The translations under genes and the position numbers were made by a program. The notes under the pieces were generated by a model. That model did not search any database. It was not told the origin of the DNA and saw only the letters and a program-made list of their open reading frames with translations. From positions 124,001-188,000 of the forward strand of contig NZ_JAIQZB010000005.1 in the NCBI RefSeq assembly GCF_020164555.1: a stretch of 64,000 nucleotides of DNA. Direction: 5' to 3'. Positions within the stretch are counted from its first letter, which is position 1. Each line of letters opens with the position of its first letter. This stretch comes from Salegentibacter lacus (GTDB taxonomy: Bacteria; Bacteroidota; Bacteroidia; Flavobacteriales; Flavobacteriaceae). Shown here piece after piece: positions 14,198 through 26,707 of this stretch.

Positions 14198-15556
14198 TTA
14201 GGCTTTAACATAAACTGTTTTCTTATTAACAAACTCCATCATTCCTTCTTTAGCTAACTCGCGGCCATAGCCAGATCGCTTGGTTCCACCAAAGGGAAGT
14301 CGGGGATCAGATTTTACCAGCTCATTAACAAAATAGGCGCCATCTCTAACCTTATCAGCCATTTGCATAGCTTTTTCAATATCCTTTGTAAAAACCGTAG
14401 TTCCCAGTCCAAACTTTGATTTCTCTGAAAGTTCAAAAGCTTCTTCTATGCTTTTTACTTTAATAATCGCTGCGAGTGGTCCAAATGTTTCTTCATCGAA
14501 AGCGGCCATTCCCGGTTTTACATTTCCAAGTAAGGTAGGCTGATGGAAACAATGATCCTGTTCCCCACCAAGTAACAATTCAGCTCCCTGTTCCAAAGAT
14601 CTTTTTACCTGACTTTGAAGTTGATCTGCGAGATCTTTTCTGGCAAGCGGACCAACCTGGGTAGTATCGTCCATAATATCTCCTGCCTTTAACTCACTTA
14701 CTGCAGCCTTGAATTTAGAAACAAACTCATCGTAAATTCCTTCCACTAGAATAAAACGTTTCGCGGCGATACAGCTTTGTCCGCAGTTTAACATCCTTGC
14801 AGAAACTGCTGTTTTAACAGCGCGATCTATATCGGCATCTTCCCAAACAATAAAAGAATTATTACCGCCTAACTCGAGTAAACTCTTTTTTATATATTTT
14901 CCCGAAAGTTGCGCCACTGCCGATCCTGCAGCTTCACTTCCGGTTAAGGTAACCGCTTGAACTGCATCGTGAGCGATAATCATTTCGGTTTGATCGTGAT
15001 GTACAATTAAATTCTGAAAAACTCCTTTTGGATATCCAGCTTTTGTAAAAACCTCTTCAATCTTTTTAGCACAGCCAAAAACATTTGGTGCGTGTTTTAA
15101 AATTCCGGTATTTCCAGCGGTAAGTGTTGGTGCGGCAAACCTAAAAACCTGCCAGAATGGAAAATTCCAGGGCATAATAGCGAATACACTTCCTATGGGA
15201 TCGTGCCTAACATAGCTATGAGTGGCATCTGTTTTTATCTCTTCAGGAGCGAGAAATTCTGCAGCATTTTCAGTATAATAATCACAAACCCAGGCGCATT
15301 TATTAACCTCAGCCCTGGATTCAGAAATTGGTTTCCCCATTTCCTGAGTAATCATTTGTGCATACTCTTCAACATTATCCCTTAAAACCTGTGCGGCTTT
15401 CTTTAAAAGTTCGGTTCTTGAAGAAAGAAGTGTCTTGCTCCAATCCTTAAATGCTTCTCCTGAAAGGTCTAAAACCTTTGTAGTTTCTTCTGCTGTTTGC
15501 GCAGTATACTTTCCAACCTGTTCTCCGTTATAGGGGTTTGTGCTATAAAATTCCAT
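14198..15556 (-). CDS. NAD(P)-dependent succinate-semialdehyde-type aldehyde dehydrogenase
   Basis: Aldehyde dehydrogenase superfamily enzyme of 452 residues, matching the shorter GabD/Sad-like group. Visible motifs are the nucleotide-binding AIMPWNFPFWQ near residue 126, the general-base glutamate in LLELGGNN near 227, and the nucleophile cysteine in NCGQSCIAAKR near 262. EETFGPLAA follows near 358. Oxidation of succinate semialdehyde or a similar omega-oxo acid to the carboxylate is the expected reaction. It lies just past the terminator of the transaminase/decarboxylase operon, so it is separately transcribed or reached by read-through. It could still complete that pathway by oxidising the aldehyde made by the GabT-type enzyme (inference). 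Confidence 0.9.
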   Translation of the reverse strand: MEFYSTNPYNGEQVGKYTAQTAEETTKVLDLSGEAFKDWSKTLLSSRTELLKKAAQVLRDNVEEYAQMITQEMGKPISESRAEVNKCAWVCDYYTENAAEFLAPEEIKTDATHSYVRHDPIGSVFAIMPWNFPFWQVFRFAAPTLTAGNTGILKHAPNVFGCAKKIEEVFTKAGYPKGVFQNLIVHHDQTEMIIAHDAVQAVTLTGSEAAGSAVAQLSGKYIKKSLLELGGNNSFIVWEDADIDRAVKTAVSARMLNCGQSCIAAKRFILVEGIYDEFVSKFKAAVSELKAGDIMDDTTQVGPLARKDLADQLQSQVKRSLEQGAELLLGGEQDHCFHQPTLLGNVKPGMAAFDEETFGPLAAIIKVKSIEEAFELSEKSKFGLGTTVFTKDIEKAMQMADKVRDGAYFVNELVKSDPRLPFGGTKRSGYGRELAKEGMMEFVNKKTVYVKA

Positions 15557-15614: not shown

Positions 15615-15669
15615 AAAAAAACCTGGTGTTATGAATAATAGCAAAATCCATTATTTATAACACCAGGTT
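15615..15669 (-). terminator. strong terminator ending the transaminase/decarboxylase/C45 operon
   Basis: Perfect 13-bp stem (15620-15632 with 15657-15669), extended inward by a wobble pair and six more pairs. On the minus strand it is followed by a run of six Ts. It lies 35 bases after the C45 gene stop and 59 bases before the aldehyde dehydrogenase start. Confidence 0.9.
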
Positions 15670-15703
15670 CTATAGGAATATATTTAAACTCAATAAATAA
15701 AAA

Positions 15704-16954
15704 TTAACTCCTCCAGGAATCGGCATATCCTGTTCCCATTTTACTCCAGAAACCGGCGACTGCCTGCCAGGAGACTTCTCCATTATTAATAATTTTGCCT
15801 CTTAATTTTTCAAGCTCCTTCTCATTTGTTGAAGGATGGGCCTGAGCCATAGCATTCACCATAATTTCGGTTACAGTTTCCTGCCAATCTACATTTTCGG
15901 CGTATTGCTCTTCAAATGGATCTTCTACCGTTTGAGCAATTTCCGCAGCTGGCTGGTTCCACCATTCAGTTGCAACCTGAGCTGGTTCGTAATTTATTAA
16001 CTTATAAACTTCCTTAAAGTTTTCGAAAGTTTGTTGCACCGAAGCTTCAGGCCAGCGAAGTACTACTTTTCCATCTAGCGGGTGGTAAACCGAGGTGAAT
16101 AAAGTTCCGAAACCTTCCTTGAATTTAGTATTATAAAGCGGTGCCTTAAGAAAGGCATTGGCTACCTGAGTGGAATCCACTCCTTTCTCTGACAACATTT
16201 TATTCAGAAAAGAAGATCGTTCCATCGTTTTATTAAACGCTGCATTTTCCGGCCAGTCTACAGTTCCCTGGTGATTCGTTGAAAAAGAAGCATCAGTAAT
16301 CACTGGTGCTTTATCTGGTGCCAGTTGTACGGTCTTAAATTTCCCGGTTTTGTCTACTACGGTTACGTTATAAGACATATGTGAAGGAATCCTGATTAAA
16401 GCTGCAACAGCTTCATCAACATCACTACAAAATTCTAAAACATAACGCAAAATAAACGGAATACCAAAACCTACTCCTACCTCCTTTCGACCTCCGAAGG
16501 TAAGCGAAATGGCCAGGCCATCTTCATTCATACCATCTACTGCGCCAATAAGGCAATCGCTGGTTACGATTACTTTTTTATTATTCCAGGAAGTTAGCAA
16601 TTGGGTTCCTTCCATTAAATCTGGATGGAAATCGTAATTTCTAACCAACTGAATTTCCTCTCCCGTAGTAACCGCCTGTGAGCAACCACTTATATAAGCA
16701 GGAGGCTGAAAGCCTGTTAAGAATCGTGCCGCTACCTTATCTCCTTTTGCAAGTTTGCATAAGCGCTGATAAGTAGGCCACATCTCTGGCATATACTTTT
16801 TAAGTGCTTCCTGCGAAGTTTTAAGATCTGGGTAATTGGTTGTTCCTTTTGAATTAAGCCAGCTTTTATAAGCGGGCCAGTGAGTATTATATAATTTTTG
16901 CCATTTAGAACCCGGTTTTCCGGGTTCAGAAATAGCATTAAAATGTAACTGCAT
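15704..16954 (-). CDS. C45-family autoproteolytic acyltransferase/hydrolase (Ntn fold)
   Basis: Relative of isopenicillin N acyltransferase, a cysteine Ntn-hydrolase that cleaves itself and acts on amide bonds. The expected Gly-Cys cleavage site is visible as YISGCSQAVT, with Cys91 the predicted new N-terminal nucleophile. It is followed by the oxyanion-region LVRNYDFHPD. The start is set at the ATG at 16954 (416 residues); a TTG at 16999 would add 15 residues. There is no signal peptide, so it is cytoplasmic. It is the last gene of the six-gene operon and may release or transfer the acyl group placed by the ATP-grasp ligase upstream (inference). The substrate is unknown. Confidence 0.85.
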   Translation of the reverse strand: MQLHFNAISEPGKPGSKWQKLYNTHWPAYKSWLNSKGTTNYPDLKTSQEALKKYMPEMWPTYQRLCKLAKGDKVAARFLTGFQPPAYISGCSQAVTTGEEIQLVRNYDFHPDLMEGTQLLTSWNNKKVIVTSDCLIGAVDGMNEDGLAISLTFGGRKEVGVGFGIPFILRYVLEFCSDVDEAVAALIRIPSHMSYNVTVVDKTGKFKTVQLAPDKAPVITDASFSTNHQGTVDWPENAAFNKTMERSSFLNKMLSEKGVDSTQVANAFLKAPLYNTKFKEGFGTLFTSVYHPLDGKVVLRWPEASVQQTFENFKEVYKLINYEPAQVATEWWNQPAAEIAQTVEDPFEEQYAENVDWQETVTEIMVNAMAQAHPSTNEKELEKLRGKIINNGEVSWQAVAGFWSKMGTGYADSWRS

Positions 16955-17040
16955 AGATATGGGGTTTAAATAACTACTTGTACTTTTTAGGTTCGGCAAA
17001 GTAGTTTTAATTCCTTTTGAACCTTCAATAAGCCAGCATT

Positions 17041-18831
17041 TTATTTAGTTAAAGTTCCGGATAATTTTGGCTTTTTCTTATCCTCAACCATTTCAGAGGC
17101 ATACTGTCCACGAATAGCTTTAATCCAATGCTTCGCCCTGTTATTCAGCTGAAAATCGTCGGTCATCATACGGCCACGACTAACCAAAATTCCCATATCT
17201 GCACCTTCGTAGAGGTAGTCCCCTTTACGACTAATACGTAAGAAAAAAGCTTCATTTTCATTTTCTACCGCCCTACGGTGGGTATCCATCCTGTCGAACT
17301 GAATATGGCCTGTATCATACATTCTATAAATACCCGATTTTGGTGCATGAGTGATATATTCTATAGTGTCTTCTGTATGTTTAACGATTAGCTGGCTCCA
17401 TCCATCAATATTTTCCTGGCGGGCCCAACGATCATTTATAGCGTCAATATCAAGATCATAATCAATATCCATCCATTCCAAAATATGGAAAACGAATAAT
17501 GGTGCATCTGCAAGCGCAAAAACAGCATGATTGGTTATGGAGCTAGCTCCCGTAACTCGCGGGTTTAATTCCCCTAAATAAATCTCTCCATTGTCCTGGT
17601 CTATTAGGAAATCAAGTTCAAAATATCCTTTATAACCTTCTTCCCGTAATTGATTTCCAAATAACTGGGTATATTCTATTGCTTTATCTCTTAGCTCAGG
17701 AGTAAACGCATTAGGGTAGATTTCGTTTCCACACCATCCACCTTCATAAGGAGTAAGTTCTTTAAAACCTACCAATTCTGTCATTAGCGGAGCAACGATG
17801 GTACCGTGTCTGGTTACACAAGCTTCTATAGCAGAACCTCGGCAACGAATACGCTTCATCACTTTAACTTCGTCTTCCTTTTCTATTTCTTCAGCATGTT
17901 TTTGATATTCCTCTTCATTCGAAATAAAGAAAGTAGTATGGCCAGAGTCACCAAAAGGGGTTTGGATAACCAACTCGTTTCCTAGATGCTTTGAAACCTC
18001 TCTCAAATGCTCAAAATTATCAATCTTTGTAAGTACATAAGGTACGCAGGCAACTCCTGCTTTCTCTGCGATCCGGTTGGTATTTACCTTATTATCCAGA
18101 AAAGTTCGCATTTCAGCTTTTGGAAACATAATTTCTAAGCCAAGTTTCTCTGCAAGCTCTTCGGTTTTCTCATTAAACATAAGGAACATGGCTTTACCAG
18201 CCCTTCCGTCTACAGATCTTGTTTTTAGGTAATCCTGAACTTCAGGATGCTGTAATAGATAATTGTTTATATCTTCTATACCTTCAAAATCATCGTGAGG
18301 AATTTCGGTTTTAGGAGAAAACACATTAGGATGAAGGCCGTCAAAACATTCGATATGGCAAATAAATTTGAATCCTTTGATCCACTCATCAGCACCTAAA
18401 AGATTGAAGTTTGTGGCACTTATAAAATATAAAGGCTCCTCGTTCTTATGGAAAGACCTTCTAATATCTGAAACTCCATTCAGCGCATTCTTGCTTTTGT
18501 ATTGTCTGGGGGCATTCGTAGCTAATTTTTTATCTTTTACCTGCTTAGGTCCAACCGCTTTTTTACTTTTAATAGTTTTTGCCTTTTTAGCAGCAGAATC
18601 TGTAGTAGCTTTTTTCTTTTTATTAGCTGAAGAAGCAGGAGCTTTTCCCTGCTGCGCTGTAGAATCTGAAGGCACAGATTTCTTCCCTTTTAAAGGCTTT
18701 TCTTCTGTAACTTTTAATTTGCTATCTTTTTTAGCACTACGTTCCGGGGATACCGGTTCTTTTTTAGGTGTAGTTTTCTTTTTATTAGTTGCTCCTTTTT
18801 TATTGGAGGCTTTTGGTTTTTTAGATTCCAT
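17041..18831 (-). CDS. ATP-grasp ligase with histone-like basic N-terminal tail
   Basis: 596-residue protein. The first 110 or so residues are dominated by Lys, Ala, Ser, Thr and Pro (many KK runs), like H1-type nucleic-acid-binding tails. The rest is a biotin-carboxylase-like ATP-grasp domain: ELVIQTPFGDSGHTTFFI near residues 300-317, the VMKRIRCRGSAIEACV strand, and the metal-binding FELDFLIDQDNGEIYLGELN with ELNPRVTGAS. No biotin-carboxyl carrier or carboxyltransferase gene is nearby, so a carboxylate-amine ligase is more likely than a carboxylase. It starts 4 bases after the decarboxylase gene and is followed by the C45 hydrolase gene. The substrate is unknown. Confidence 0.85.
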   Translation of the reverse strand: MESKKPKASNKKGATNKKKTTPKKEPVSPERSAKKDSKLKVTEEKPLKGKKSVPSDSTAQQGKAPASSANKKKKATTDSAAKKAKTIKSKKAVGPKQVKDKKLATNAPRQYKSKNALNGVSDIRRSFHKNEEPLYFISATNFNLLGADEWIKGFKFICHIECFDGLHPNVFSPKTEIPHDDFEGIEDINNYLLQHPEVQDYLKTRSVDGRAGKAMFLMFNEKTEELAEKLGLEIMFPKAEMRTFLDNKVNTNRIAEKAGVACVPYVLTKIDNFEHLREVSKHLGNELVIQTPFGDSGHTTFFISNEEEYQKHAEEIEKEDEVKVMKRIRCRGSAIEACVTRHGTIVAPLMTELVGFKELTPYEGGWCGNEIYPNAFTPELRDKAIEYTQLFGNQLREEGYKGYFELDFLIDQDNGEIYLGELNPRVTGASSITNHAVFALADAPLFVFHILEWMDIDYDLDIDAINDRWARQENIDGWSQLIVKHTEDTIEYITHAPKSGIYRMYDTGHIQFDRMDTHRRAVENENEAFFLRISRKGDYLYEGADMGILVSRGRMMTDDFQLNNRAKHWIKAIRGQYASEMVEDKKKPKLSGTLTK

Positions 18832-18835
18832 AATT

Positions 18836-21592
18836 TTAATTTTTTAAGTTAGTGATCTTTTTCTTCGCGTTGTTTCCCATAGAGCCCATAGAACTCACTG
18901 TCTTTTGACGGTTCAGCACATTGTCCTTAAAAATTCTTAGACCGAGATCTGCCCGGTACCCGTGAATTTCAGATACATCTAATGCAGTAAGAAATCTTAT
19001 AATTTCTTTACTTACTACCTGGCCGGGAACAAGTACCGGAAATCCCGGCGGATAAGGGATTATAAAAGATGAAGCTACCAGGATCCTATTTTCCTCCATA
19101 GCGGGCAAACACTCCAGCAGCGGCATATATTCATAATTTTCTTCGTTGTAAGCGAGGAAAAATGCCTCTCTTATATTACCCCCAGGAACCCCGGGAACAG
19201 CCTGAAATGAATGGTGGAAATAACTAAAATCTGGCAATGGCGGAAAATCTTCGGTTAAAGATTTAATGCGATCCTTACGGTTATTCCCCTCTTTCTGGCT
19301 AAGAGTCTTGAATTCCTGATCTAACTCATCGGCTATCTTTAATAATGCATTGGTTAAATAGGTGACACTTCCCCTCGTGGTCCCAATATTCGTCATAAAC
19401 AAAACCGTATTTCTGGAGGTTTTATTTATTTGAATATTAAATTTATCCATTAGATACCTGTTCTTAAAGGTATCACCATCTACTCCGGTTCTTCCTATAT
19501 GCAAGGTGATTTTGGTAGGGTCTAAAACAAATTCATCCTGCTCCCAGGCGGTTTCCATCCTGTTCCAACCTTCCTTTGAATTATAATATTCCTTTATGCC
19601 CGATTTGCGGTACTGCTCCGGGATAAAATCGCTTATAGTTAGCACATCAAAATATTTCTTCAATTTAGGATGATCATTGACCTTAGCCCTTAAAACCATT
19701 GCCAATTCCACACTTTTTTCTACTAACTCATAACCTTCAAATTGAACCTGCCTTCTTCCAACGTCAAGGGAAGCAAGCATCTGGTAATTAGGAGAAGTTG
19801 AAGTATGCGTCATATAAGCTTCCATGAAGGTATTCTCGCTTTTTTTACGAAAATCCTCGTCCCATATATGTATCATAGAACCCTGGCGGAAACTACTAAG
19901 GGTTTTATGCGTACTTTGGGTAGAATATACCCTTATGCGTACCTCATCTGGATTTGGCAGGCTTGGAATTTCATTCTTTTTAAGCCCTTTAATATGAGCG
20001 TTGTATTCTTTACGGTAACTTTCACTTTGGTATTTATCACATAATTTCTGAGCAACAAACATTCCAGTACGTTGCTTGTAATTATATGTAAAACCGGCAA
20101 ATGCAAACCAGGCTTCATCCCATAGAAAGATCATATCTGGCTTAATGGCCAGTATTTCCTGCATTACTTTTTCAACATTATAAACCAGTCCGTCAAAAGT
20201 GCAATTGGTTAACAAAAGCATTTTTACAAGGTTTAATCTTCCTGCCTTTTTTAATTGAAGAAGTTTTTCCTTTATCTGCTCCAGCGGCACCGCGCCATAC
20301 ATTGAATATTCTTCAATTGGATAAGAATCGAGATAAACCGGATAAGCTCCTGCCAATACAAGTCCGTAATGATGCGATTTATGGCAGTCCCTGTCAATTA
20401 AAATCACATCTCCAGGTTTCACCAATGCCTGCACTACAATCTTATTGGCGGTAGAAGTACCGTTGGTTACAAAATAGGTATTTCTTGAGCCGTAGGCTTC
20501 ACTGGCTTTTTGTTGTGCTTTTTTAAGTGAGCCGGTTGGTTGCAATAAGGAATCTAAACCGCCGGTGGTAGAAGATGTTTCTGCCAGAAACATATTTCGG
20601 CCGTAAAAATTTCCAAAATCGTTGATCCATCTGGATTTAAAAACTGAATTACCCCGGGAAATTGGCATCGCATGGAAAATTCCGGTAGGTTTTTTACTAT
20701 AATCTTTTAAAGCTGAAAAAAATGGAGTTTCATAACGCTCGCTTATTCCCCGAATTACTGTAAGGTGTAACTCCTGTAAATCTTCAGTTCGGTAAAAAAT
20801 TCTTCTGAAGGTTTTTAAGGTACTGTCCTTTAAATTACTTAAAGCCGTATCGGTTACATAATAGGTATCCAGTTCTGGCCTGAATTTTTTTACCATGGTT
20901 CCTAAAATCGGCCCTAATTCAGTAGGCGATTTAGAACCATAATTCAATTTCAATATATTCTGAATAAAAGGTTTTATTGCAGGAGTAATCTTTTTTGAAT
21001 GATAGGGAGGCGCATAGCGAATTACAACCGCCTGAATATTAAAATTAAACTGAAGGGCAATTAAAGCATCTTCAAAAGAACGTTGTACTACAATTCCATA
21101 GGCAAACTGCTCGTTAGACAGACGCATTTCTTTAAGGTCATGCCGAAGTTTATTTTCTTCTGCCTGAGAAATATCTTCTACAAACATGACTTCAAAATAA
21201 TTCTTCTTAGCTACTTCGGTATATTCTCCTTTATCGCTAAGATCAGTTCCCGGATCTTCATCTTCCAAAAAATCGGGATTGCTTCTATACCTGTCACTTA
21301 CCAGGTTCTTTGTGATCTCTGCTATTTTATGTGAGAGAGCGGTATGTTCCTGTCTTTCTAACATTTCACGCAGTGAGTCGATACAGGATAAACCTGGAAA
21401 TGCAAAGAAGCATTCTACACCCTCGAGATCTTTTAAAAGCTGCCGAAGATTTTTTTTATGTGCCTTTTCATCTTCTGACCCACGAGGAGTAGAATGAAGT
21501 TTTGTAGACTCACTTTTTAAAGTATTCCAGGATTCCACTCTAAGTTGAGCGATATTATAATAATGTGCACTGTCTATTTTTTTCTCTGGCAT
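18836..21592 (-). CDS. Orn/Lys/Arg decarboxylase-fold PLP enzyme, long form
   Basis: 918-residue fold-I PLP enzyme. Residues from about 120 to 260 resemble the receiver-like wing domain of acid-type Lys/Arg decarboxylases. The core has FVTNGTSTANKIVVQAL, DRDCHKSHHYG (ring-stacking His), TNCTFDGLVYN and LWDEAWFAF. The PLP lysine is Lys563 in STQSTHKTLSSFRQGS. The C-terminal domain ends around 890. The family decarboxylates lysine, arginine or ornithine; residue choice alone does not tell which. It is about 160-200 residues longer than the E. coli enzymes, mostly in the N-terminal region. The gene is packed 2 bases after the VOC gene and 4 bases before the ATP-grasp gene. Confidence 0.87.
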   Translation of the reverse strand: MPEKKIDSAHYYNIAQLRVESWNTLKSESTKLHSTPRGSEDEKAHKKNLRQLLKDLEGVECFFAFPGLSCIDSLREMLERQEHTALSHKIAEITKNLVSDRYRSNPDFLEDEDPGTDLSDKGEYTEVAKKNYFEVMFVEDISQAEENKLRHDLKEMRLSNEQFAYGIVVQRSFEDALIALQFNFNIQAVVIRYAPPYHSKKITPAIKPFIQNILKLNYGSKSPTELGPILGTMVKKFRPELDTYYVTDTALSNLKDSTLKTFRRIFYRTEDLQELHLTVIRGISERYETPFFSALKDYSKKPTGIFHAMPISRGNSVFKSRWINDFGNFYGRNMFLAETSSTTGGLDSLLQPTGSLKKAQQKASEAYGSRNTYFVTNGTSTANKIVVQALVKPGDVILIDRDCHKSHHYGLVLAGAYPVYLDSYPIEEYSMYGAVPLEQIKEKLLQLKKAGRLNLVKMLLLTNCTFDGLVYNVEKVMQEILAIKPDMIFLWDEAWFAFAGFTYNYKQRTGMFVAQKLCDKYQSESYRKEYNAHIKGLKKNEIPSLPNPDEVRIRVYSTQSTHKTLSSFRQGSMIHIWDEDFRKKSENTFMEAYMTHTSTSPNYQMLASLDVGRRQVQFEGYELVEKSVELAMVLRAKVNDHPKLKKYFDVLTISDFIPEQYRKSGIKEYYNSKEGWNRMETAWEQDEFVLDPTKITLHIGRTGVDGDTFKNRYLMDKFNIQINKTSRNTVLFMTNIGTTRGSVTYLTNALLKIADELDQEFKTLSQKEGNNRKDRIKSLTEDFPPLPDFSYFHHSFQAVPGVPGGNIREAFFLAYNEENYEYMPLLECLPAMEENRILVASSFIIPYPPGFPVLVPGQVVSKEIIRFLTALDVSEIHGYRADLGLRIFKDNVLNRQKTVSSMGSMGNNAKKKITNLKN

Positions 21593-21594
21593 AA

Positions 21595-22011
21595 TTAATC
21601 TTTTGAGTGTAAAGCAAGCTTGTTTCCTTCAGAATCAATAAATATGGCAAAATGTCCCGATTCAGGATTAATCAGGGTTTTGGTCATCACAATTCTTCCT
21701 CCGGCTGCTTCTACTCTATTTAAAATACGGTTTAGGTCTTTTCCTGCATTAAGATAAAGCAGGGGGCCTATAATCCCGGGTATAGAATTTGGTCCCGTAA
21801 CAATCGCCCCTCCAATACCCTTTTCTGCAGGGAAAAAAGCCATCGCATAATTCCCGTCAAATTGGGTTTCCATATCAATATTAAAAATGCGGTTATAAAA
21901 ATCTACCGCTTGTTGGAAATTAATTGCAGGAATTTCAAACCAGCTTATAAAGTCCTTTACAGGTTGTTCTTCCTGTTTATCCTTTTTCTTCTTTTGTGTT
22001 GTTCCTCCCAT
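21595..22011 (-). CDS. VOC-superfamily protein (glyoxalase-like)
   Basis: 138 residues with a lysine-rich N-terminus (QKKKKDKQEEQ) and one vicinal-oxygen-chelate unit. FISWFEIPAINFQQAVDFYN begins the first beta-alpha-beta module, and GHFAIFIDSEGNKLAL ends the second. The group resembles small VOC proteins of unknown activity, sometimes called lactoylglutathione-lyase-like. It sits inside the operon with 16 bases to the hydrolase gene and 2 bases to the decarboxylase gene, so it is part of the pathway or protects it from a reactive aldehyde (inference). Confidence 0.85.
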   Translation of the reverse strand: MGGTTQKKKKDKQEEQPVKDFISWFEIPAINFQQAVDFYNRIFNIDMETQFDGNYAMAFFPAEKGIGGAIVTGPNSIPGIIGPLLYLNAGKDLNRILNRVEAAGGRIVMTKTLINPESGHFAIFIDSEGNKLALHSKD

Positions 22012-22027
22012 AGTCCTTGTTTTTTAA

Positions 22028-22960
22028 TTATGCGCCAAATCCTTTATAACCTGTAGGGTTTGCTGGTGGTTCATATTCATGTTCTTTCATTTTTAATTCT
22101 GCCAGGTTATCCAACCTCGTAGGCTTTATAAGTGGACCGAGTGAATTAAGATAAGGCAGCTGCGCTCCGTGTTGATAAATATTAAATTGACCAATATGAT
22201 CTCTAAAACTTTTTAAGGGCTGGCCCAAGCGTAAAACTCCAAGTTCCCGACTTCTTCTAACACGACTGATGTTAAGTTCCAGGGGAAAAATCTCTTCATT
22301 TCCTTCGGCCTGATAAATCACACGACCATCGGGTCCACAAACGAGCGACCTTCCATTACCCCCGGATTCGAGTCCGTTTACATCAAAGAAGTAACACTGA
22401 TTTACCGCGGCCATAGCCCTTACAATAGACAATTCAATATCCCTGTCTATAGTTCCTGTCATAGTTGGGTGCAAAATAACCTCAGCTCCCATTACCGCGA
22501 GCGTACGCACTGTTTCAGGAAACCACATATCATAACAAACAGATAGCCCGAATTTTGCAACTCCCGGCACATCAAAAACGCAAAAATCTGAACCCGGAGT
22601 AACCCCTACTTCATAAGGATAGAAAGGGAACATTTTTCTGTAACGTGTAACAATTTCCCCTTCAGGATTAATTACCGTTGCAGTGTTATAGATTTTACCT
22701 TCGCTTTTCTCGAAGATGGAACCCGGTAATAACCAAACTCCATGTTTTTTGGCCATAGCCTGCATCTCCCTTTCAAATTCTCCCGGAATTTCCTGCGCAT
22801 TATGGGTTAATGGGCCGTAGCCGCATAACTCACTAAAAACCACCATATCTACCCAGGGGTAAAGACTCATGGTAATATCAAGTTTCAGCTTCATCATCTC
22901 GACATTCGAGGCGACGGCGGAAACCTTCATCTGTATTCCTGCAATTGCAAATGGATTCAT
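22028..22960 (-). CDS. carbon-nitrogen hydrolase (nitrilase superfamily)
   Basis: 310-residue cytoplasmic amidase/nitrilase-fold enzyme with the complete catalytic triad: Glu44 (VFSELCGYG), Lys109 (RYRKMFPFYP) and Cys142 (LSVCYDMWFPE). It resembles the amidase and carbamoyl-amine hydrolase branches of the superfamily. Hydrolysis of an amide or N-carbamoyl bond on a polyamine-like intermediate is a reasonable guess given the decarboxylase in the same operon. It begins 180 bases after the transaminase gene, where an internal promoter could exist though none matches consensus well, and ends 16 bases before the VOC gene. Confidence 0.88.
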   Translation of the reverse strand: MNPFAIAGIQMKVSAVASNVEMMKLKLDITMSLYPWVDMVVFSELCGYGPLTHNAQEIPGEFEREMQAMAKKHGVWLLPGSIFEKSEGKIYNTATVINPEGEIVTRYRKMFPFYPYEVGVTPGSDFCVFDVPGVAKFGLSVCYDMWFPETVRTLAVMGAEVILHPTMTGTIDRDIELSIVRAMAAVNQCYFFDVNGLESGGNGRSLVCGPDGRVIYQAEGNEEIFPLELNISRVRRSRELGVLRLGQPLKSFRDHIGQFNIYQHGAQLPYLNSLGPLIKPTRLDNLAELKMKEHEYEPPANPTGYKGFGA

Positions 22961-23140
22961 ATTTAATTTTTTTATTATTATCCGTAGAAAATATTTCCCC
23001 CGGATGCTTCTAATGGATTTCTTCTATTTTGCTAGTGCCCACCAATTAGTAATCTCATTAATTAATATCTACACTAAAATTATGCGGAGGATTTCATTCA
23101 ATGTTCTTTAAAAAATGAACTTCAACCTACCCGATAAAAT

Positions 23141-24448
23141 TTAAGTATGTTTTCTTATTTGATTTTCCAGAATATCCAGAGCTCTATTTAGTTGTTCATC
23201 GGTAATTACAAGTGGACATAATATTCTTATTACGTTTTTAAAGGTACCGGCGCTTATTAGAATTAAACCTTCCTTTGCACATCCTTTTACGATGTTAGCG
23301 CAGAGTTCTGTATGTGGGTTGCCGGGATCGTTATCCTTTATGAATTCTATTCCTATCATAGCACCTAATCCTCTTATATCCCCAATTTCAGGACATTCTT
23401 TCCTGAAAATTTCCATCCGGTCTCTGATGAGCTTACCTATATAAATTGCTCTCTCATTAAGGTTTTCATCCTTCATTAACTGGATAGTAGCCAAAGCTGC
23501 AGCACAACAAACAGGGCTACCAATATAGGTGCCGCCAATAGTGCCCGGTTCTGCAGCATCCATAATTTCAGCTCTACCAAGTACCGCAGCAATTGGAAGC
23601 CCGGAGCCCATAGATTTTGCATAAGTGCTAATATCAGGTTGTACTCCATAATGTTGCCAGCTGGCCCAATGCCCTGTACGGCAAAAACCGCTTTGAATCT
23701 CATCAAAAATTAACAAAACACCATGTTCATCGCAAAAGGAGCGAAGTCCTTCCAGGTATTTTTGAGGAATTGGATTAAAACCTCCTTCTCCCTGAATTGG
23801 CTCAACAATTATAGCTGCAACGCTATTTATATCAACCATACTATGGGCACTTTCCCTAAGCCTTTTTAGCTCTGTTTCTACAAATTCCTCCATATTCTGG
23901 GTGCCGTGATATTTGTAAAAATTTGGAAAAGGAATTCGGTAAACTTCAGGAGCAAAAGGCCCTGAAGAAAATTTGTAATTTACCTTACTGGTTAGGCTCA
24001 TCCCCATTAATGTTCGCCCATGATATGCTTCTGTATAACAAATTACAGCAGGTCTTTTTGTGGCCTGGCGTGCAATTTTAATGGCATTCTCTACGGCTTC
24101 TGCTCCGGTGCTAATAAGCATCGCTTTCGTTTTCCCCCCGTGCGGAAGAATTTCAGCAAGTTCTTCACAGAGCTGAATGTAAGGCTCATAAGTCACTACA
24201 TTAAAACTGGTATGAAGATACTTTTCAGCCTGTTCCTGGATAGCTTTCACTACAGGTTCGGGACAATGGCCTGCATTTACAACACCAATCCCACCTGCAA
24301 AATCTATATGTTCCTTTCCATCTACATCTGTTATTATTGCTCCTTTAGCCTCTTTAACCGTGGCTGTATTAAAAACGCCAACCCCGTTGGCGACAATGTT
24401 TTTTCTCCTATCAAGGAGTTGCTGAGATTTAGTTTTTTCTTCAGTCAT
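23141..24448 (-). CDS. class-III omega-aminotransferase (GabT-like)
   Basis: 435-residue PLP enzyme of the 4-aminobutyrate transaminase group. Motifs include the phosphate-binding STGAEAVENAIKIAR, EAYHGRT near residue 140, VEPIQGEGG, the PLP-contacting FDEIQSGFCRTG and the Schiff-base lysine Lys278 (YAKSMGSGLP). The start is set at 24448 (MTEEKTKSQQ); the frame extends to 24523, but the added residues look like non-coding leader. It is the first gene of the operon running to 15704. Expected reaction: transfer of a terminal amino group from an omega-amino acid or capped amine to 2-oxoglutarate, yielding a semialdehyde for the nearby dehydrogenase. Confidence 0.9.
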   Translation of the reverse strand: MTEEKTKSQQLLDRRKNIVANGVGVFNTATVKEAKGAIITDVDGKEHIDFAGGIGVVNAGHCPEPVVKAIQEQAEKYLHTSFNVVTYEPYIQLCEELAEILPHGGKTKAMLISTGAEAVENAIKIARQATKRPAVICYTEAYHGRTLMGMSLTSKVNYKFSSGPFAPEVYRIPFPNFYKYHGTQNMEEFVETELKRLRESAHSMVDINSVAAIIVEPIQGEGGFNPIPQKYLEGLRSFCDEHGVLLIFDEIQSGFCRTGHWASWQHYGVQPDISTYAKSMGSGLPIAAVLGRAEIMDAAEPGTIGGTYIGSPVCCAAALATIQLMKDENLNERAIYIGKLIRDRMEIFRKECPEIGDIRGLGAMIGIEFIKDNDPGNPHTELCANIVKGCAKEGLILISAGTFKNVIRILCPLVITDEQLNRALDILENQIRKHT

Positions 24449-24873: not shown

Positions 24874-25332
24874 TTAAAGAGGAACCGCTGTAGTGCTTTT
24901 CACAGGACTAATTATAAAAGTACTTTGGGTGCTTCCAATATGATCTAAATTGGTGAGCTTGGTAACCATAAATTCACGGTAAGCTGCCATATCTTTCACC
25001 AACACTTTTAATATATAATCGTATTCACCGCTTACGTGATAACATTCTAAAACCTCAGAAAGCTTTGCGGCTTCAGCTTCAAATTTGGTTAAATAAGACC
25101 GGGAATGTTGAATGAGTTTAATCTGGCAAAAAACCATAAAACTTTTTTCCACTTTATCAGGGGAAACCAAAGCTACATATTTCGAAATAACCCCTTCTCG
25201 TTCAAGGCGCTTAACTCTTTCAAAAACAGCCGTTACAGAAAGCTGCATTTTACTAGAGATCTCCTTGTTGGTCATTTTGCTGTCCTCCTGAAGATGTTTT
25301 AAAATCTGAAGGTCTTTTTGATCTAATTTCAT
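24874..25332 (-). CDS. Lrp/AsnC-family transcriptional regulator
   Basis: 152-residue regulator. The N-terminal helix-turn-helix has DLQILKHLQEDSKMTNKEIS and LSVTAVFERVKRLEREGVI. The C-terminal RAM/AsnC effector domain has the typical CYHVSGEYDYILKVLV. The start at 25332 (MKLDQKDLQIL) is taken over the longer frame to 25371, because the domain begins here and a perfect TAGATTTG -7 element lies 27 bases upstream. It is divergent from the Met-gamma-lyase-like gene and points towards the transaminase operon. It may therefore sense an amino acid and control either or both (inference). Confidence 0.93.
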   Translation of the reverse strand: MKLDQKDLQILKHLQEDSKMTNKEISSKMQLSVTAVFERVKRLEREGVISKYVALVSPDKVEKSFMVFCQIKLIQHSRSYLTKFEAEAAKLSEVLECYHVSGEYDYILKVLVKDMAAYREFMVTKLTNLDHIGSTQSTFIISPVKSTTAVPL

Positions 25333-25492: not shown

Positions 25493-26707
25493 ATGAAATA
25501 CAAACCCGCAGATAGCATCCAGGACCTTCAATATTTTGGCGAATTTGGAGGCGTTAATCCTTCCATATCCGATTCCTCTACTTATACATTTCTTTCAGCA
25601 AAAACCATGTTCGATACTTTTGAAGGAAATTCAGAAGGTTGCTACCTTTATTCGAGACATTCTTCTCCTTCAAATTTATATTTGGGCGAAGCCCTTGCAG
25701 CAATGGAAGGCACCGAAACCGCCAATGTAGCTGCCAGCGGAATGGGCGCTATCACCTCTACCCTGCTTCAGTTATGCCAGGCCGGCGATCATATTGTTTC
25801 CAGCCGCACCGTTTACGGCGGGACCTATGCATTTATGAAAAATTTTATACCGAAGTTCAATATCAAAACTTCCTTTGTAGATATTACTAATCTTGAAAGC
25901 GTTGAAGCAGCGATCACAAAAAACACAAAAGTGCTTTATTGCGAGTCGGTGAGCAATCCGCTTTTAGAAGTTGCCGATATTGAAGCTTTAGCCAAAATCG
26001 CAAAAAAACACCAGCTCACTTTTGTGGTAGATAATACGTTCTCCCCGCTTTCTATTAATCCGAAAGAATTGGGTGCAAATGTTGTAATTCATAGCCTAAC
26101 CAAGTTCATTAACGGCAGCAGCGATACCGTTGGCGGTGTTACCTGTGGAAGTCAGGATTTCATTAACGCACTTCGCAGCGTTAACGATGGCGCCAATATG
26201 TTACTTGGACCAACGATGGATAGTATGCGGGCGGCTTCGGTTTTAAAGAATTTGAGGACGCTTCACATCAGGATAAAACAGCACAGCCATAATGCAATGT
26301 TTTTAGCTGAAAAATTCCAGGAAGACGGCTTGAGAACGGTTTATCCCGGATTAAAAAATCATCCCGGCCACGATATCTTTAAGAAGATGATGAATGAAGA
26401 TTACGGTTTTGGTGGTTTGTTGACCGTTGATGTAGGCAGTCTTGATAAAGCCAATGCATTAATGGAATTGATGCAGGAGAAAAACCTGGGCTATCTGGCG
26501 GTAAGTCTGGGCTTCTATAAAACATTATTTAGTGCTCCCGGTAGTTCTACTTCTTCAGAAATTCCAATTGAAGAGCAGGAAGAAATGGGCTTAAGCAATG
26601 GCTTAATTCGTTTTTCTATTGGATTGGATAATGATATAGAACGGACTTATAAAATGATGAAATCCTGTATGAAGGAAGTTGAAATTTTAAGCAAAGAAAT
26701 GGTTTAG
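25493..26707 (+). CDS. Cys/Met-metabolism PLP enzyme (methionine gamma-lyase-like)
   Basis: 404-residue fold-I PLP enzyme of the trans-sulphuration family. Visible are YSRHSSPSNLYLGEALAAMEG near residue 60 (tyrosine-phosphate contact), ASGMGAITSTL, the aspartate of VVDNTFSPL near 182 and the PLP lysine in HSLTKFINGSSD near 206. GSSTSSEIP follows near 355 in the C-terminal domain. Likely reactions are gamma- or beta-elimination of methionine, homocysteine or cysteine, or gamma-replacement; the sequence does not separate these. It is a single gene with its own promoter and terminator, divergent from an Lrp-type regulator, a common pairing for amino-acid catabolic genes. Confidence 0.9.
   Translation: MKYKPADSIQDLQYFGEFGGVNPSISDSSTYTFLSAKTMFDTFEGNSEGCYLYSRHSSPSNLYLGEALAAMEGTETANVAASGMGAITSTLLQLCQAGDHIVSSRTVYGGTYAFMKNFIPKFNIKTSFVDITNLESVEAAITKNTKVLYCESVSNPLLEVADIEALAKIAKKHQLTFVVDNTFSPLSINPKELGANVVIHSLTKFINGSSDTVGGVTCGSQDFINALRSVNDGANMLLGPTMDSMRAASVLKNLRTLHIRIKQHSHNAMFLAEKFQEDGLRTVYPGLKNHPGHDIFKKMMNEDYGFGGLLTVDVGSLDKANALMELMQEKNLGYLAVSLGFYKTLFSAPGSSTSSEIPIEEQEEMGLSNGLIRFSIGLDNDIERTYKMMKSCMKEVEILSKEMV

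Follow-up and report, generated by a model that had tools for sequence, protein, structure and literature searches.

A 64,000-nucleotide stretch of Salegentibacter lacus (contig NZ_JAIQZB010000005.1, positions 124,001 to 188,000; this whole stretch is hereafter called the window) carries six successive minus-strand genes, and the question is whether they serve one pathway and, if so, which one. They encode a class III aminotransferase, a carbon-nitrogen hydrolase (CN-hydrolase), a small VOC-fold protein, a pyridoxal phosphate (PLP)-dependent decarboxylase of the Orn/Lys/Arg (OKR) type, an ATP-grasp ligase and a C45 Ntn-hydrolase. An earlier note had described them as one operon ended by a strong terminator, and all of the open reading frames (ORFs), the intergenic gaps (180, 16, 2, 4 and 86 bases in the above order) and the hairpin were confirmed, with Pfam backing every name (Table 1). 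The same order recurs in relatives, showing that the arrangement is not a matter of chance, and the operon looks like an uncharacterised pathway. The reading that we favour, with a probability of roughly 0.4, is a catabolic route in which an amino acid of the arginine/ornithine family would be degraded via a capped amine to gamma-aminobutyrate (GABA) and then to succinate.

Conservation and co-occurrence of the gene set

GTDB contigs were scanned with the ATP-grasp protein, from which 80 of 129 places encoding relatives were kept, and 19 further regions were taken from 247 genomes of the class, giving 99 loci in total with one contig counted twice (L034 = L111). Clustering of the ORFs over these loci yielded the ATP-grasp protein in 98, the decarboxylase in 85, the CN-hydrolase in 77, an aldehyde dehydrogenase (ALDH) in 74, the transaminase and the VOC protein in 70 each and the C45 protein in 57. 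Many loci were truncated by contig ends. Among those with full flanks (at least 6.5 kb upstream and 4 kb downstream; 66 of 98 with the duplicate dropped), the decarboxylase was present in 65, the transaminase in 59, the CN-hydrolase in 59, the VOC protein in 53 (same strand, within 6.5 kb of the ATP-grasp gene), the C45 protein in 45 and the ALDH in 44 at the threshold used, and 31 of the 66 held the transaminase, CN-hydrolase, decarboxylase, ATP-grasp, C45 and ALDH genes all together. The count for the ALDH is low because its slot is taken in some loci by an ALDH from a different subfamily.

Median gaps were 18 bases from the decarboxylase to the ATP-grasp gene (88 pairs), 3 from the transaminase to the CN-hydrolase (68 pairs) and 3 from VOC to the decarboxylase (67 pairs). 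The ALDH gene closely trails either C45 (median gap 75 bases, 43 pairs) or ATP-grasp (44 bases, 19 pairs), bearing out the suggestion that the adjacent ALDH of the window belongs to the set; it is the seventh member of the operon, despite the terminator that separates it from C45 in the window.

Complete or partial versions of the order occur across Bacteroidota, and parts of it also on contigs bearing the labels Ignavibacteria, Ignavibacteriae or Ignavibacteriota (L074, L076, L091, L092), Calditrichaeota (L087), Balneolaceae (L107, L110) and Acidobacteria (L112). All of these contigs are metagenome bins, so some of the labels may be wrong; in the phylum of the Acidobacteria bin, the 2 positives of 247 were that bin and a weaker relative (587 bits, below the cut-off, with one internal stop). 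Among named organisms, Salegentibacter supplies the nearest relatives of the ATP-grasp protein (up to 96%). The gene order, whose conservation outside close relatives had been named as a check, thus reaches far, including bins labelled as other phyla and plasmids. The view of the six genes as one functional unit is supported.

Co-occurrence was assessed in the 247 genomes of the class, the same draw being used in every search. The ATP-grasp gene was found in 20 of them and the decarboxylase subfamily in 19, all within the 20; the CN-hydrolase subfamily was found in 15, of which 14 were ATP-grasp-positive (the remaining one being G072), and the C45 subfamily in 13, of which 12 were ATP-grasp-positive (the remaining one being G051). 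Hypergeometric P values by genome were 2e-27 for the decarboxylase, 2e-17 for the CN-hydrolase and 2e-14 for C45; counted by genus they were 4e-18, 9e-15 and 7e-11, with kinship between genera not removed. Co-occurrence held even where linkage was lost: in G211 some 44 kb separate the decarboxylase from ATP-grasp and the CN-hydrolase is on a different contig, and the CN-hydrolase of G034 and the C45 gene of G210 are each on other contigs. The distribution is patchy, with the ATP-grasp gene in 2 of 7 genomes of the window's family, the window genome included.

Some loci deviated in other ways. A Eudoraea metagenome bin (G502) has two copies of the cluster (L072 and L077), both without C45. In Algoriphagus loci and a single Flammeovirgaceae bin (L116:8390-9832, L100:14125-15525), the run includes an APC-type amino acid permease that stayed below all cut-offs. 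Three reduced loci, L035, L036 and L040, have a protein (c32) divergent from VOC, decarboxylase and ATP-grasp that combines a urea transporter with an M23 peptidase domain, as Pfam showed for the L036 member. A family of 220-235 residues (c13, e.g. L069:11590-12291), in which the one member scanned gave no Pfam or NCBIfam match, occupies the C45 place between ATP-grasp and ALDH in five loci and lies further downstream in two. An apparent 1465-residue fusion of decarboxylase and ATP-grasp in L026 was rejected as an artefact, its first ~900 residues being a wrong-frame reading of high-GC DNA; a similar error seemingly hides the C45 gene of L033, which tblastn of the region reveals.

Enzyme families and the proposed route

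The best solved relatives of the decarboxylase were 9n0n and 9n0o, both of Rv2531c of Mycobacterium tuberculosis (residues 13-899, E 3e-235), followed by the arginine decarboxylase 6q6i, and its PLP lysine, K563, was present in all 34 sequences chosen for alignment. It is the sole OKR_DC_1 protein in 19 of the 20 ATP-grasp-positive genomes, the other one (G031) having none. Six specific NCBIfam models matched it, all far below their cut-offs, of which the lysine decarboxylase LdcC scored best (209 bits against 968). This score raises a distinctly improbable variant, in which the same capped route would start from lysine and run through cadaverine and 5-aminovalerate to glutarate, and GABA and 5-aminovalerate transaminases are indeed hard to separate by family; the distance of the LdcC score from its cut-off, the arginine decarboxylase as the next solved match and the Shinella and Roseobacter contexts described below, which favour arginine/ornithine and GABA, all speak against lysine. 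Arginase-family proteins were encoded in all 20 cluster genomes. A route through agmatine deiminase was rejected, as PF04371 was not found at 1e-20 in 12 of the 20, including that of the window. Three related decarboxylases (L131, L132, L133; 41-44% identical), which form a separate branch, lie beside genes for AspT-type antiporters, one of them also with an aspartate 4-decarboxylase, and two decarboxylase matches contained internal stops (G210:C20:477128-479836, two TAA; G228:C236:1908-4319, one TAG and one TAA).

The ATP-grasp protein belongs to NF005096, a family named 'biotin carboxylase' (827.5 bits, cut-off 684), which was found in none of 14 control genomes. Its AlphaFold model (pLDDT 84.9) matched the folds of PurK, biotin carboxylase and PylC, tied as best (Z 21-23, rmsd 3.7-4.8, 9-17% identity). 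In biotin carboxylase, the QVE following NPRI presumably holds the bicarbonate, whereas the window protein reads NPRVTGAS, with TGA in the place of QVE; among 36 aligned sequences G319 is invariant and the residues are similar. With this motif unmatched and the PurK and PylC folds fitting equally well, a biotin carboxylase function was rejected. The fold match to PylC, which caps the side-chain amine of lysine, speaks for the capped route, and capping would be an obvious role for a ligase so closely associated with a decarboxylase.

The CN-hydrolase has no close named family in Pfam or NCBIfam; E44 and K109 were kept in 72 of 72 aligned sequences and C142 in 71, with a gap in the other. The C45 protein scored well over the NF040521 cut-off of 85, and C91, R105, D108 and N227 were invariant in 35 of 35 aligned sequences. 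Its model (pLDDT 84.0) matched the Penicillium isopenicillin N acyltransferase best (2x1c, Z 29.5, rmsd 3.3, 304 residues aligned; best other protein Z 24.5), sharing the fold, the nucleophile cysteine and the Arg/Asp/Asn set at only 14% identity. Isopenicillin N acyltransferase removes an alpha-aminoadipyl amide, a homologue of a gamma-glutamyl amide, and a capped amine is therefore a plausible substrate of C45, judging by the model and this analogy.

The transaminase scored 503.6 bits to TIGR00700 (cut-off 506.65) and was 42% identical to PuuE and 43% to GabT. The equivalents of I50, R141, E211, K268 and R398 of Escherichia coli GabT were kept in 65 of 65 aligned sequences (those of 421-469 residues among the 71 of the cluster), and we take I50, R141, E211 and R398 to be GABA-site residues; PatA has F and K at the positions of I50 and R141. 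The ALDH scored 506.5 bits to PRK09406 (cut-off 730), 474.6 to PRK13968 (cut-off 855) and 343.6 to a further succinate-semialdehyde dehydrogenase (SSADH) model (cut-off 646.35), compared with 232.3 to PuuC. GabD R165, which together with R283 presumably binds succinate semialdehyde, was kept in 63 of 63 short ALDHs, whereas 2 of 11 long ones kept it and 9 had H (74 in total). In locus L113, the ALDH slot is filled by a GabD-type SSADH (717.5 bits, cut-off 646.35). Since the GabT residues are kept and the dehydrogenase is mostly SSADH-like, the pathway probably ends with the conversion of GABA to succinate, which the transaminase residues, L113 and a Roseobacter gabT support, and Cupriavidus pBB1 less so. 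In the earlier note, the capped amine was deaminated, perhaps oxidised by the adjacent ALDH, and then uncapped. This order found no support in that form: the two enzymes resemble GABA transaminase and SSADH, and they would therefore probably act mainly after removal of the cap.

From these features we infer the amino acid substrate, the cap, the order of the steps and the conversion of amine to acid as follows. The OKR enzyme would decarboxylate an amino acid, most likely ornithine or arginine, to putrescine or agmatine, and the ATP-grasp enzyme would attach this amine to a carboxylic acid, for which PylC and PuuA suggest an amino acid as a possibility. The opposite end of the capped amine would then become a carboxylate, either by the same transaminase and dehydrogenase acting twice or by enzymes encoded elsewhere. 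Release of the omega-amino acid would fall to the CN-hydrolase, C45 being an optional further hydrolase, and the GabT-like transaminase and the SSADH-like enzyme would finish the route.

Plasmid loci, reduced gene sets and competing readings

The ATP-grasp family was found on 32 of 72,556 plasmid records, and 11 loci in 10 records were inspected. Of these loci, 10 have C45 within 6.5 kb of ATP-grasp on its strand, 7 the decarboxylase and 4 the CN-hydrolase, which is divergent in the three Shinella-type loci. Reduced or rearranged forms of the set occur on rhizobial, Roseobacter, Shinella and Cupriavidus plasmids. In Roseobacter ponti, gabT (upstream, over the TIGR00700 equivalog cut-off), CN-hydrolase, decarboxylase, ATP-grasp, C45 and an oligopeptide-type importer stand together, with a glutamate-synthase-like gene on the opposite strand. 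In the Shinella-type loci (Shinella zoogloeoides, 'Roseateles' XES5 and Sinorhizobium RAC02), ATP-grasp and C45 are accompanied by a permease, an agmatinase-family protein, a 5-guanidino-2-oxopentanoate decarboxylase, an ALDH, a D-amino acid dehydrogenase, a racemase and RidA, so that arginine/ornithine enzymes occupy the place of the decarboxylase. In the Shinella plasmid, the 2-oxo acid decarboxylase (737 bits, cut-off 500) and the D-amino acid dehydrogenase (473.5, cut-off 383) form one run with the ALDH, the agmatinase-family protein, ATP-grasp, C45 and an 'alanine racemase' (L123:15779-17566) in which an ornithine-racemase-like domain (393, cut-off 480) is fused to an arginase-family domain. 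It is because of these loci that we place arginine or ornithine at the start of the route. In Cupriavidus necator pBB1, CN-hydrolase, ATP-grasp and C45 are joined by an importer, a MocR-family regulator, a ThDP enzyme and an ALDH resembling PuuC (54% identity to the E. coli protein).

A number of observations weigh against the capped catabolic route. The operon has no dedicated enzyme for converting the amine or the capped amine to a carboxylate, and its transaminase retains a GABA-type arginine that is absent from PatA. The window ALDH has R283 of GabD replaced, lacking one arginine of the pair and staying below the SSADH cut-offs, and four of five divergent ALDHs in the same slot score best to lactaldehyde dehydrogenase, none over the cut-off (the fifth is that of L113). 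The window genome holds a separate gene pair for an arginine-decarboxylase-like protein (below cut-off) and an agmatinase; because it stands beside that gene in an apparent polyamine locus, this agmatinase does not discriminate between readings. According to a 2026 review, available in part, the activity of Rv2531c is still unassigned (PMC12910592). The XES5 plasmid holds an OKR decarboxylase elsewhere, so the replacement seen in Shinella-type loci is only local. The gabT (over the equivalog cut-off) and SSADH genes of pBB1 lie about 17 kb off on the opposite strand and are thus weaker support, and the MocR-family regulators at both Cupriavidus loci score over the PdxR cut-off and below those of rhizopine MocR and GabR. 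In G031 (L034/L111), a frame-broken CN-hydrolase (two pieces in different frames) directly precedes ATP-grasp, and no decarboxylase was found at the locus or elsewhere in the 460-contig assembly. C45 was absent at 1e-20 from 18 of 19 genomes, in assemblies of unstated completeness; these correspond to 20 loci picked because C45 was not in its usual place, and the 19th, G511, has a C45 gene near the cluster on the opposite strand. Finally, 6 of the 20 ATP-grasp-positive genomes (G041, G100, G115, G164, G168, G220) lack both this CN-hydrolase and C45 at the thresholds used, which the scheme leaves unexplained. In these six, the decarboxylase adjoins ATP-grasp and, in five, VOC does so too, the genome-wide searches having covered ATP-grasp, the decarboxylase, the CN-hydrolase and C45.

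Because of the six reduced genomes and those without C45, the decarboxylase and the ATP-grasp protein look like the core of the set, with the CN-hydrolase as its usual partner and C45 as an optional one. C45 as a needed part of the earlier route was not supported; since it is dispensable, the hydrolase generally used is more likely to be the CN-hydrolase.

The six reduced genomes would be accounted for by a rather unlikely alternative, in which the core makes an amide. Here, the decarboxylase and ATP-grasp would form an N-acyl amine as a store, osmolyte or signal and the CN-hydrolase, C45, transaminase and ALDH would recycle it, breakdown having been added in most lineages; the set would resemble a rhizopine or opine module in its action on the symbiotic plasmids of rhizobia. 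Such a role would also explain the placement in Rhizobium leguminosarum OyaliB (L129:5469-28132, a conjugative plasmid), where decarboxylase, ATP-grasp, C45, a peptide-type ABC importer, an amidase and a regulator stand directly beside nifHDKEN, and it agrees with the importers at the Roseobacter, WSM1689, SM11 and pBB1 loci. However, the WSM1689 copy of this cluster has no nif gene in the 12 kb around ATP-grasp, the conserved run showed no exporter, and breakdown is suggested by the GABA-transaminase-like genes in the run of most full-flank loci and the SSADH-like ones in that of many. A second ATP-grasp copy of OyaliB lies in L126 with transposases adjoining.

The missing step from amine to carboxylate would be closed by another, quite unlikely, scheme, in which the PLP enzyme decarboxylates the amino acid oxidatively to an omega-amino amide, the CN-hydrolase releases GABA or 5-aminovalerate, the transaminase and ALDH finish, and ATP-grasp and C45 protect the side-chain amine. 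This would be a PLP-based analogue of DavB-DavA-DavT-DavD. The presence of the CN-hydrolase subfamily in 14 of the 20 genomes, an AS-family amidase adjoining three rhizobial clusters without CN-hydrolase, and the higher score of the window ALDH to SSADH than to PuuC agree with it. Nevertheless, we know of no oxygenase activity in this decarboxylase fold, the CN-hydrolase accompanies ATP-grasp and C45 without a nearby decarboxylase in pBB1 and Shinella-type loci, and the six reduced genomes hold the decarboxylase without that CN-hydrolase.

Locus features and relation to known systems

The terminator hairpin between C45 and ALDH has a folding energy of -29.4 kcal/mol (z -7.7 against 200 shuffles) with a T run next to it; a simpler scan did not list it. 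Consensus promoters were uninformative (28 in the window, 34.8 in shuffles). The Lrp/AsnC-family gene adjoins the operon in 11 of the 99 loci and is possibly a local regulator outside the conserved core; the pair of this gene and the divergent methionine-gamma-lyase-like gene accompanies the operon in 11 of the 99, mainly in Salegentibacter and Gillisia. The ATP-grasp protein bears a low-complexity N-terminal tail whose length differs among relatives, and the VOC protein starts with a short lysine-rich stretch.

Table 1. Features of the operon and its surroundings, in window coordinates
Feature	Position	Strand	Evidence or remark
Lrp/AsnC-family regulator P0008, upstream	24874-25332	-	PF01037 and PF13412
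Methionine-gamma-lyase-like gene	25493-26707		divergent from the Lrp gene
Class III aminotransferase P0007 (AT3), GABA-transaminase-like	23141-24448	-	PF00202, 405.6 bits
CN-hydrolase P0001	22028-22960	-	PF00795, 110.6 bits
Small VOC/glyoxalase-fold protein P0002	21595-22011	-	PF00903, 28.3 bits
Lysine-rich start of VOC	21962-22011	-	short stretch
Orn/Lys/Arg-type PLP decarboxylase P0003, Rv2531c kind	18836-21592	-	PF01276, 264.5 bits
ATP-grasp ligase P0004, NF005096 family	17041-18831	-	PF02786, weak (24.6 bits against 19.8)
N-terminal tail of ATP-grasp	18502-18831	-	~110 residues, rich in lysine, serine and alanine
C45 Ntn-hydrolase/acyltransferase P0005, optional member	15704-16954	-	PF03417; NF040521, 168.7 bits
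Rho-independent-type terminator between C45 and ALDH	15618-15671 (approx.)	-	hairpin and T run
ALDH P0006, SSADH-like	14198-15556	-	PRK09406 and PRK13968, scores below cut-off

Among known systems, the gamma-glutamyl-putrescine (Puu) pathway of E. coli shares the proposed logic of the capped route: an ATP-dependent ligase of amine and acid, a hydrolase releasing GABA and a terminal GABA transaminase. A counterpart of that pathway with unrelated ligase and hydrolase, as suggested earlier, remains the best reading. No BLAST hit at E 1e-3 was obtained between P0004 and E. coli PuuA, which is glutamine-synthetase-like, or between either the C45 protein or the CN-hydrolase and PuuD, and no PuuB-like oxidase turned up in a scan limited to nine proteins of the window. 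The operon ALDH is 31% identical to PuuC and 32% to GabD, being nearer to SSADH models by profile, and the operon, unlike Puu, includes its own decarboxylase. By the sequences of its ligase and hydrolase, the operon is thus not a member of the Puu pathway, although it may work like one. The DavB-DavA-DavT-DavD route of lysine degradation has a CN-hydrolase, a class III transaminase and an ALDH in one unit, as does the operon, which differs in adding the decarboxylase, ATP-grasp and C45; no DavB-type flavin monooxygenase was found among the same nine proteins, within the same scope.

No description of the gene set was found in an open-access full-text library, from which most subscription papers are absent, and PRK06524, a name of the ATP-grasp family, occurred in no paper of that library. 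The available part of a fitness-data study mentions nothing on this cluster (PMC9007349). In Paraburkholderia phymatum, an ATP-grasp/biotin carboxylase gene of the symbiotic plasmid, which may or may not belong to the present family, was up in a nifA mutant (PMC8305402).

The proposed route ties four families for which no role was found, namely the Rv2531c-type decarboxylases, NF005096, the CN-hydrolase and the C45 subfamily, into one testable pathway that spans marine Bacteroidota and plasmids of plant symbionts, and the database name 'biotin carboxylase' for NF005096 is misleading. It is conceivable, if unlikely, that a widespread and unrecorded pathway exists in which an Rv2531c-type decarboxylase makes an amine for the ATP-grasp enzyme to cap, and that on rhizobial symbiotic plasmids the amide would also be a nutrient or signal made in nodules in the manner of a rhizopine. 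If true, this would provide the first biochemical context for the Rv2531c decarboxylase family.

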